A stretch of DNA of 64,000 nt, taken from NCBI RefSeq assembly GCF_023168405.1, contig NZ_AP025285.1, positions 1,238,001 through 1,302,000 of the forward strand, given 5' to 3'. Source of the DNA: Leptogranulimonas caecicola (GTDB lineage: Bacteria; Actinomycetota; Coriobacteriia; Coriobacteriales; Atopobiaceae). This document shows, in pieces, positions 32,895-34,962 of the stretch (positions within the stretch are counted from its first letter, which is position 1; each line of letters begins with the position of its first letter). A program made the position numbers and the translations under genes. Below the pieces are notes generated by a model. That model saw only the letters and a list, made by a program, of their open reading frames with translations, was not told the DNA's origin and did not search any database.

Positions 32895-33323
32895 CTAGTC
32901 GAACATCAAAGAATCCAGGTTCTCCTCGAAGGCAGCCTGAGCGGCCTCCCAGCGGTCCGTGTTCCAGATTTCGAAGTGATCGACGTTGCCCACGACGGTG
33001 ACTTCGCCCTCTAGCCCAAGGGCCTTGCGTTTGGATTCATCCACCTTGCCGAGCGCGATGCGTCCGGCCGAGTCGACATCCACCGTGACGGTGCGGCCGG
33101 TGAGACCGCCTCGAAGTTTGATGTCGTCGGGATTCCTGGGGTTGTAGCCATTGGGGAAATAGCTTGCAACCCAGGCTTGATGTCCCTCAGGCGTGAAGCC
33201 ATAGAGCGCATCCTTGAGGGGAACAAGGCAGACCTTGTCGTCGAACTCTCGACGCATGTCAGCAGGGAGCGTGAGGCGCACCTTGGAATCAAGGCTATGC
33301 GTTCTGCTGCCTGTCAAATACAT
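32895..33323 (-). CDS. mraZ: Transcriptional regulator MraZ
   Basis: DNA-binding protein with two swapped-hairpin AbrB-like domains that represses the division/wall cluster. HSLDSKVRLTLPADMRREF is the first domain signature and TVDVDSAGRIALGKVDESKRKALG the second; the end EIWNTDRWEAAQ is also typical. 142 aa is normal. It is the first gene of the dcw cluster, and its own promoter carries TGGGN boxes. Confidence 0.95.
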   Translation of the reverse strand: MYLTGSRTHSLDSKVRLTLPADMRREFDDKVCLVPLKDALYGFTPEGHQAWVASYFPNGYNPRNPDDIKLRGGLTGRTVTVDVDSAGRIALGKVDESKRKALGLEGEVTVVGNVDHFEIWNTDRWEAAQAAFEENLDSLMFD

Positions 33324-33382: not shown

Positions 33383-33411
33383 ATTCTAGGGTGAACGCCA
33401 CACCTAGGCAA
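33383..33411 (-). promoter_or_regulatory. mraZ promoter P1
   Basis: On the minus strand -35 TTGCCT (33406-33411), a 17-nt spacer and -10 TAGAAT (33383-33388), about 60 nt before the mraZ ATG. It is the best vegetative promoter for the whole dcw cluster. Confidence 0.7.
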
Positions 33412-33418
33412 CACTTCC

Positions 33419-33444
33419 TCCCACCTTCCCCCACCTCATCCCCA
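33419..33444 (-). promoter_or_regulatory. MraZ-type operator boxes at P1
   Basis: On the minus strand TGGGG, TGGGG and TGGGA follow each other with steps of 11 and 10 nt and end 8 nt before the -35. TGGGN direct repeats with 5-nt spacers are the known MraZ binding pattern in E. coli and mycoplasmas, so autoregulation is expected. Confidence 0.65.
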
Positions 33445-33489
33445 CCCCTAGATGTGGCGGTGGAATCCGGTAAAACCCACTCTATCTTG

Positions 33490-33518
33490 ATTTAGAACGG
33501 CTGTTCGCGACTTATCAA
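33490..33518 (-). promoter_or_regulatory. Possible second mraZ promoter with LexA-like palindrome
   Basis: On the minus strand TTGATA (33513-33518), a 17-nt spacer and CTAAAT (33490-33495). The palindrome GAAC-N4-GTTC occupies 33495-33506, inside the spacer. It shares ATTTAGAACNNNNGTTCG with the palindrome before the metallopeptidase/xseA unit (1866-1877). Confidence 0.4.
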
Positions 33519-33885
33519 TCAATTAAGTTAAGGCCATCGAAAACCTGTTCTAGAGTGGTGAAAAGAGCGGGTCGATTGGTCGCTATCCCTGCATGTTACT
33601 TTCTTTATTTAAGTTCTAGCAACCTGTGGCATTCTCAAAAAAGACGACCAGACCAGTTTTGAGAAATTTTCTTTTTCCGTTGTGTAAATTCACCTGAATG
33701 TAGCCTAAAAAGGGATGAGCGGCGCATTTTGAGCCTTGGCTGAGGTCCTTTGCTACCATGGCTTAGCTGGAATTATCAAACTTTGTTGTTATTGGCAAGC
33801 TAATCAGTAAGGTTTTGGGCCGCTTTTAGGGCATCCTAAAAGCCGGCAACCTTTATGAAGCGGCTCCATATTTGCGTCAGGTGGG

Positions 33886-34018
33886 TGGGGCAAAGTGGGA
33901 CGCTTTCCATATGAGCCTATCGGGTGAGGCAAAGTGAGGCATGAGTCCCTCCCCCACAAAAAGGTGGGACGAAGTGGGGAGGCGCTTCTCGGCAACAAAA
34001 AGGTGGGGCAAAGTGGGA
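33886..34018. repeat. Four phased TGGGN-N5-TGGGN box pairs
   Basis: Plus-strand pairs start at 33886/33896 (TGGGG, TGGGA), 33925/33935 (TGAGG, TGAGG), 33965/33975 (TGGGA, TGGGG) and 34004/34014 (TGGGG, TGGGA). Within a pair the step is always 10 nt; between pairs it is 29, 30 and 29 nt. The boxes and the CAAAG spacer are conserved while the DNA between pairs differs, as expected of binding sites. They match the MraZ box pattern but point away from mraZ. Confidence 0.75.
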
Positions 34019-34032
34019 CGCCCCCGAGAGTC

Positions 34033-34962
34033 CTAATGGGCCCTAGGATGAGCGGCAAAATAGACGCCCTGAAGATGGGTTTGGTCCACATGGGTGTAGA
34101 GCTGGGTGGTGGCCACATCGGCATGGCCTAGAATCTCCTGGACCACGCGCAGGTCGGCACCCCCCTGAAGCAGATGGGTGGCCAAGCTGTGGCGCAAGGT
34201 ATGGGGGTGAAGGCCCTGAATGCCCACGTAGGCCCCGTAGCGTTCCACCAGATGATGAACCCACTGGCGCGACAGGCGACTCCCCCGCTGGCTCAAAAAG
34301 ACGGCCCCCTGGCTATAGGCCGCCCTCCCTGCCGCCGAAAGGGGCCGCACCAGCTCTTGCCTGCCCTCCTGGATATAGGTCGTCAGGGCCTCTTTGGCGC
34401 TGCCGAGAAGAGGCACCAACCGCTCCTTGGATCCTTTGCCTACTACCCTTACCAGCTCCTCGGCTGGATAGACGGAGTCCAAGTTGAGCCCACAAAGCTC
34501 AGAGACCCTGAGTCCACAGCCATAGAGCACCTCGAGCAAAGCGCGGTCGCGCTGGCCGCAGGCGTCGGGAGCGAAGGGTTGGTCGAGCAAGGCTTCCACC
34601 TGCTGGATGGAGAGCACCTGAGGCAGATAGGCCGGCACTTGGGGCGCAGCCACATCGGAGGTGGGCAGCGAGTCGGACAGATGGTCGCCGGCGGCAAACT
34701 TGTGAAAGCTGCGGATAGCAGAGACCGCCCGCTTCACCGAGGAGGGCGCAGCTCCCCCTTCGCGCAGGCGTGCTACATGGCCCTCGATGACGTGGCGATC
34801 GACCTGGGAGAGTTGGGTGACGGAGTGCTCTGTCAGATCGTCCACATAACGATCTAGGTCGCGAGCGTAGGCTGCCACCGTGTTGGCAGCAGCCCCGCGC
34901 TCGACGGCCAGGTAATCAAGATAGTCCGAGACAGCTTGAGAGAGATCCATCGAAGTAGGCAA
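34033..34962 (-). CDS. xerD: Tyrosine recombinase XerD
   Basis: Site-specific recombinase resolving chromosome dimers at dif. An N-terminal SAM-like core-binding domain (SQAVSDYLDYLAVERGAAANTVAAYARDL) is followed by the catalytic domain with Arg (YGCGLRVSELCGL), Lys (GKGSKERLVPL), HTLRHSLATHLLQGGADL and LGHADVATTQLYTHV, so the R-K-H-R-H-Y set is complete. The first codon is TTG (34962); an in-frame ATG (MDLSQAVSD) at 34950 is equally possible, and neither has a clear RBS. It follows pyrG by 19 nt. Assigned to XerD rather than XerC by overall similarity only. Confidence 0.88.
   Translation of the reverse strand: MPTSMDLSQAVSDYLDYLAVERGAAANTVAAYARDLDRYVDDLTEHSVTQLSQVDRHVIEGHVARLREGGAAPSSVKRAVSAIRSFHKFAAGDHLSDSLPTSDVAAPQVPAYLPQVLSIQQVEALLDQPFAPDACGQRDRALLEVLYGCGLRVSELCGLNLDSVYPAEELVRVVGKGSKERLVPLLGSAKEALTTYIQEGRQELVRPLSAAGRAAYSQGAVFLSQRGSRLSRQWVHHLVERYGAYVGIQGLHPHTLRHSLATHLLQGGADLRVVQEILGHADVATTQLYTHVDQTHLQGVYFAAHPRAH

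Follow-up and report, generated by a model that had tools for sequence, protein, structure and literature searches.

In most bacteria MraZ stands at the head of the division cluster, and the purpose of its ring and its mode of control are open questions. Direct GTG repeats at 10-nt steps are described at the mraZ promoter of E. coli, Mollicutes and Burkholderia (PMC8475190, PMC7761207; Eraso 2014 and Fisunov 2016, cited in PMC8475190), and each repeat is recognised by MraZ, an octameric, toroidal complex (PMC7761207). The protein is a repressor in E. coli, and its loss lowers dcw expression in Neisseria elongata (PMC8475190, PMC9395523). Work on MraZ is described as far from complete (PMC9395523). 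The locus, analysed here by comparison of sequences, carries, besides a box run at the mraZ promoter, a distant array of boxes of the same type. The original prediction had called such distal arrays undescribed, and in the searchable literature, in which subscription journals are thinly covered, we likewise came across no paper that describes MraZ operators in a distal or inverted position, or looping by MraZ. The protein and the boxes are known; their distal arrangement appears undescribed in the searchable papers.

The mraZ locus and layout of the distal array

The window (the whole 64-kb stretch of DNA that was analysed) belongs to a closed genome of 2.0 Mb from a member of the Atopobiaceae, the family that also includes Parafannyhessea umbonata. 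The gene order on the minus strand is pyrG, xerD, mraZ, mraW (rsmH), ftsL, ftsI and murF, where pyrG, ftsL, ftsI and murF were named from their translations and xerD, mraZ and rsmH by profile. The mraZ gene (32895..33323, minus strand), encoding the regulator of the division and cell wall cluster, is 99% identical to mraZ of the nearest named relative, Olsenella sp. KGMB02461. Its product contains two DxxxR motifs (DSKVR and DSAGR), belongs to the MraZ family by its score with Pfam PF02381 (56 bits, cut-off 23) and matches the solved MraZ structures 1n0e, 9qlr, 9sx6 and 9qlg. With NCBIfam TIGR00242 it scores 56.5 bits, below the cut-off of 98.35, which is mostly passed by MraZ proteins from other orders of the class and not by those of this family. 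The divergence of the protein (56 bits against a cut-off of 98) coincides with the unusual operator layout.

The mraZ promoter contains a run of four boxes (GTGGGGATGA, GTGGGGGAAG, GTGGGAGGAA and GTGTTGCCTA; 33405..33445, minus strand), whose GTG starts are located at 33445, 33434, 33424 and 33414 and which we presume to be the partner operator of the distal array. A TTGCCT within these boxes doubles as the -35 element, and the -10 hexamer TAGAAT follows at 33388-33383 on the same strand. The distal array is formed by eight TGRGR boxes on the plus strand (33886-34018), found exactly where the original prediction had placed them, with starts at 33886 (TGGGG), 33896 (TGGGA), 33925 (TGAGG), 33935 (TGAGG), 33965 (TGGGA), 33975 (TGGGG), 34004 (TGGGG) and 34014 (TGGGA), so the reported steps of 10, 29, 10, 30, 10, 29 and 10 nt are confirmed. 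The boxes form pair 1 (GTGGGGCAAAGTGGG, 33885..33899), which is nearest to mraZ, pair 2 (GTGAGGCAAAGTGAG, 33924..33938), pair 3 (GTGGGACGAAGTGGG, 33964..33978) and pair 4 (GTGGGGCAAAGTGGG, 34003..34017), all on the plus strand, the last of them nearest to xerD (34033..34962, minus strand), the upstream neighbour, which ends with a stop codon 14 nt away from the array. The array therefore does not occupy the position or the orientation of a dcw promoter operator: it is inverted relative to mraZ and its promoter boxes, both on the minus strand, as the original prediction had described, and lies ∼440 nt upstream of the latter. It contains no run of at least three consecutive boxes, only two-box pairs that are 24–25 nt apart. 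The boxes are indeed kept and the 24–25-nt stretches between pairs vary, but the 5-nt spacers within pairs, which had been described as differing, are kept as well (RCRAA). Similarly, the proposed helical phasing applies inside each pair and also to a 10-bp lattice, but at a helical repeat of 10.5 bp the 39, 40 and 39 nt between successive pairs make these drift by about a quarter turn each.

Identity of the distal boxes

The distal boxes resemble the promoter boxes of the family. A position weight matrix (PWM) for the 10-nt unit AARGTGKGNN, built from ∼90 mraZ promoters of the family, gives a score of 20.0 for the mraZ promoter of the window and pair scores of 15.7, 8.3, 18.0 and 21.1 for distal pairs 1 to 4. 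The second box of pair 2, the weakest pair, is GTGGG in the sister species. All four copies of the motif RTGGG-N5-RTGGG in the 64-kb window are at mraZ. Of the seven matches to the looser form GTGKG-NNN-AR-GTGKG across the 2.0-Mb genome, three belong to the array and another to the mraZ promoter. The sites are under constraint: compared with the sister species, 1 of 40 core positions of the boxes is changed, against 14 of 93 positions in the stretches between pairs (p 0.028). Taken as a whole, the array nevertheless changes faster than the remaining gap. Together with the 10-nt step, the promoter-like spacers, and recurrence across the order (described below), this concentration at the mraZ locus and conservation in the sister species strongly support the proposal that the boxes are operators of MraZ type, and MraZ very probably binds them.

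The array might instead have nothing to do with MraZ and be a C-rich RNA signal behind xerD, with Rho loading or terminator hairpins, or a chance or decaying tandem repeat. On the mraZ strand the array is rich in CCCAC, pair 4 is overlapped by one weak terminator-like hairpin, and AAAAAGG flanks are common to pairs 3 and 4, so part of the array was produced by tandem duplication. However, RNA folding of the array is no better than that of shuffled sequences (z -0.16 and -0.40), a strict 10-nt step with A/G-rich spacers like those of MraZ promoter boxes would be unexpected for Rho sites, and the genome contains no further such array. Nor is this a decaying repeat that is also found at unrelated sites, a possibility that the original prediction had itself raised against the idea: mraZ is the only place in the 2.0-Mb genome at which the pair motif is clustered, the motif is not dispersed, and Tandem Repeats Finder did not detect the array. 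An origin unconnected with MraZ is thus very improbable. A search for an RNA element gave no Rfam match across the window and only chance-level matches in the region, with folding z-scores of ∼0 on both strands.

Recurrence of distal pairs across Coriobacteriales

The conservation in relatives that had been put forward as a check is seen at two levels, since the box cores are kept in the sister species and inverted pairs recur across the order Coriobacteriales. In the survey, each region upstream of mraZ was bounded at its far end by the xerD stop codon where this was recognisable, or else by a length of 900 nt, and at its near end by position -185 relative to mraZ; the cut at the stop codon removed PWM matches inside xerD, which are coding sequence (e.g. 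in L094 and at -444 in L043). RTGGG-N5-RTGGG was counted, with dinucleotide shuffles as controls. An inverted pair between xerD and the mraZ promoter was present in 20 of 136 loci (shuffles: mean 0.85, maximum 4 in 100) and a forward pair in 8 of 136 (shuffles: 0.33). In one other Coriobacteriales family, sampled at one genome per genus, 12 of 29 loci contained an inverted pair (shuffles: 0.14). The result was replicated with 60 further loci of that family, some from genomes that share a genus with the first sample, of which 25 contained an inverted (shuffles: 0.32, maximum 3) and 6 a forward pair. Shared ancestry means that these counts are not fully independent, an effect that is reduced by the one-genome-per-genus sampling of the first family-wide test. 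In 14 related genomes the pair motif also falls on the mraZ upstream region far above background: it is the site of the only genome-wide match in G042, of four of the five in G035 and of two of the three, one in each orientation, in G037. As most of these genomes were picked for having distal pairs, the argument rests on the unbiased locus counts.

The distal pairs of these loci have the internal structure of promoter pairs. Each is a direct repeat of GTG cores at 10 nt, as in known MraZ operators, and this step was found in 25 loci of the replication set against at most 5 for any other step between 6 and 15 nt; it was preferred in the first set too. A 12-nt step, raised in the first set (13 loci), was absent as a preference from the replication (5 loci). 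Microsatellite-like, inverted runs of GTGGGG-type boxes at 12-nt steps are found at -430 to -360 in L056 and -380 to -310 in L048, and may be a version of the distal array that has degenerated or expanded; these low-complexity arrays were omitted from the spacer and distance tests. The spacer bases, which lie outside the search rule, have the same composition in distal and promoter pairs in both sets, with A at spacer position 4 in 58% (first set) and 80% (replication) against a background of 22–23%. Spacers of a locus's own promoter and own distal pairs differ by 1.97 mismatches, compared with 2.48 for shuffled partners (p 0.0014, ancestry not removed), and in L106, L142 and L148 a distal 15-mer is identical to the promoter 15-mer in the other orientation. 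Arrays with a pair spacing of ∼40 nt are found independently in other genera: L095 has four separated pairs at 39, 40 and 45 nt, and L142 and L236 each have three at 40 and 19 nt. Distal box runs longer than that of the window are also found in other genera, in L118 (∼12 boxes) and in L113 (three distal pairs).

The distribution is uneven. Within Atopobiaceae, strong GTGGG distal pairs are present in 4 of 89 loci and are mostly absent save in a few genera, and many relatives have no detectable distal pair. Considering these relatives and the minority of forward pairs (8/136 and 6/60), neither the site nor its inversion is obligatory. Outside the order, no distal pair was found at 60 mraZ loci of the class and phylum with the pair rule, which detects promoter boxes in just 7 of these 60; a triple-box rule, detecting them in 50 of 60, also gave no distal pairs.

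Orientation and spacing of the distal boxes

Inverted orientation predominates among the distal pairs, at 20 versus 8 loci in the first set and 25 versus 6 in the replication. This bears on the notion that the array only soaks up MraZ near its gene and buffers the promoter, with no contact between the sites. Such storage would agree with the presence of several extra boxes near the gene (8 here and ∼12 in L118), and orientation would be irrelevant to it, as might be expected from the distal pairs that are forward. It leaves the excess of inverted pairs unexplained, however, and we consider it rather improbable.

The orientation could also serve an opposite promoter under MraZ control, producing a transcript antisense to xerD or a small RNA, relative to which the distal boxes are oriented as the promoter boxes are to mraZ. 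The original prediction had offered control of a transcript in the other direction as an alternative, and the sequences following the boxes speak against it. A -10-like hexamer follows the last box in 35 of 38 promoter pairs and in just 1 of 25 distal pairs of the replication set (44 of 52 and 3 of 28, respectively, in the first set). Furthermore, the last distal box lacks the TTG of a -35 element, and what lies downstream is the coding sequence of xerD. Such a promoter is hence highly unlikely, and a divergent promoter was rejected for lack of a -10.

The distance between the promoter boxes and the nearest distal pair shows a weak helical preference. In 12 loci with distances of up to 230 bp, the values lie near multiples of 10.5 bp (R 0.68, p 0.002). 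When the prediction was fixed before new genomes were fetched, 14 of 20 distances fell within the predicted interval (8.6 expected, p 0.013), or 7 of 11 when the same replication was restricted to one locus per new genus, which is not significant (p 0.14). Helical phasing of the distal set relative to the promoter is thus no more than suggestive.

The main competing explanation is that MraZ, bound directly behind the upstream gene, acts as a roadblock or insulator that stops RNA polymerase from continuing out of xerD, or another neighbour, into mraZ, so that the cluster relies on its own promoter alone and the inversion reflects a polar roadblock. No more than 40 nt separate the xerD stop codon from the start of the nearest inverted pair in 6 of 17 loci (7, 7, 12, 15, 31 and 39 nt), and in the window the distance is 14 nt; in L017 a pair is found behind a different gene, and no strong intrinsic terminator is present between the upstream gene and mraZ. 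In the remaining 11 of 17 loci, however, the pair is 74–286 nt from the stop codon, and its position therefore does not follow the end of the gene. Nor would a roadblock lead one to expect the weak preference for whole turns in the promoter distance, and we regard this explanation as unlikely, albeit less so than the others.

The arrangement that we favour is looping between the two box sets. In terms of sequence, the array shares one feature with looping operators, namely an additional site for the regulator at a distance from the promoter, and we consider it somewhat probable that the array is an inverted distal auxiliary operator in MraZ autoregulation that loops with the promoter boxes. 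The looping suggested in the original prediction fits the predominant inversion and the weak helical preference of the distance; the bridging itself we infer. In this mechanism each subunit of the MraZ ring would read one 10-bp box, and MraZ would occupy the promoter boxes that overlap the -35 element and the distal pairs simultaneously. Because the two box sets face each other, the intervening DNA would fold back into a loop. A ring with subunits beyond those needed by the promoter run could hold the second, inverted run, and the inversion would make the two sites parallel on the ring in a hairpin-like loop. Against this mechanism, the predicted loop lengths vary from ∼150 to 590 bp. The loop would strengthen or stabilise the control of MraZ over the mraZ-mraW-ftsL-ftsI operon, presumably as tighter repression rather than activation.

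That MraZ bridges the distal and promoter sets, the mechanism we favour, has in our estimate about an even chance of being correct. More tentatively, and with slightly lower confidence, the MraZ ring of Coriobacteriales may in general join two inverted operators and thereby close a DNA loop upstream of the division cluster, around a region that in Atopobiaceae holds a LexA-type box as well. Such a putative looping switch for cell division has no description for any bacterium in the searchable papers. If correct, it would give the MraZ ring a concrete role, the bridging of distant sites. The recurrence of a second operator also shows that, in a whole order of bacteria, the organisation upstream of the division cluster extends across several hundred base pairs.

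Other elements between the array and mraZ

Several further elements were found between the two operators. A LexA-type palindrome (GAACNNNNGTTC, 33495..33506) lies upstream of the mraZ promoter, and a second, degenerate one is located at 33539-33550. In Atopobiaceae a LexA-type palindrome is present at -260 to -120 in 32 of 87 loci, mostly near -180, and in none of the 87 in the control stretch from -540 to -400. SOS control of the division cluster is possible.

In several Coriobacteriales families, the stretch that separates the distal boxes from the promoter region holds a conserved element, ACCTGCNGATTC, often with TC..CACAA after it (L020, L037, L056, L084, L092, L112 and L116, at approximately -350 to -240 from mraZ). 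A palindrome, CACAACATCTTGTG, is found beside the LexA-type box or replaces it; in L116, where its arms are long and perfect, it is located at approximately -210 to -170, and similar palindromes are present in L112, L037 and L043. It is possibly the site of another regulator. The gap in the window also contains a strong hairpin, GCTTTTAGGGCATCCTAAAAGC (∼33823-33845), which is kept in the sister species and could be terminator-like or a binding palindrome. A small gene in the 420-nt gap was considered and rejected, as the gap holds short unsupported frames only. Some of the regions are too short for other content between the operators; the intergenic region of L106 is 231 nt in all and has no room for such a gene.

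Comparison with known systems

The dcw leader of R. sphaeroides with the sRNA UpsM (PMC5089854) is similar in that the region upstream of mraZ is uncommonly long, whereas the region analysed here holds an array of DNA sites in non-promoter orientation, in which no RNA family or fold was found. When the distal array is compared with the known MraZ promoter boxes, it is apparent that both have GTG-core direct repeats, 10-nt steps and a unit of the AAAGTG[T/G] type, are located upstream of mraZ and presumably bind the same protein. However, the known MraZ sites are a single run of boxes at the promoter, and here a further set, made up of separated pairs, is inverted and lies at a distance from the promoter, behind the upstream gene. 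The combination of a main promoter operator with a distal auxiliary operator for one oligomeric regulator would be shared with the DNA-looping systems lac, gal, araC and deo. Their proteins are dimers or tetramers that use few half-sites, whereas MraZ is a ring that reads a run of 10-bp direct repeats. Therefore, the geometric reason for the inverted distal set of the mraZ locus would not be the one that applies in lac, gal, araC and deo.
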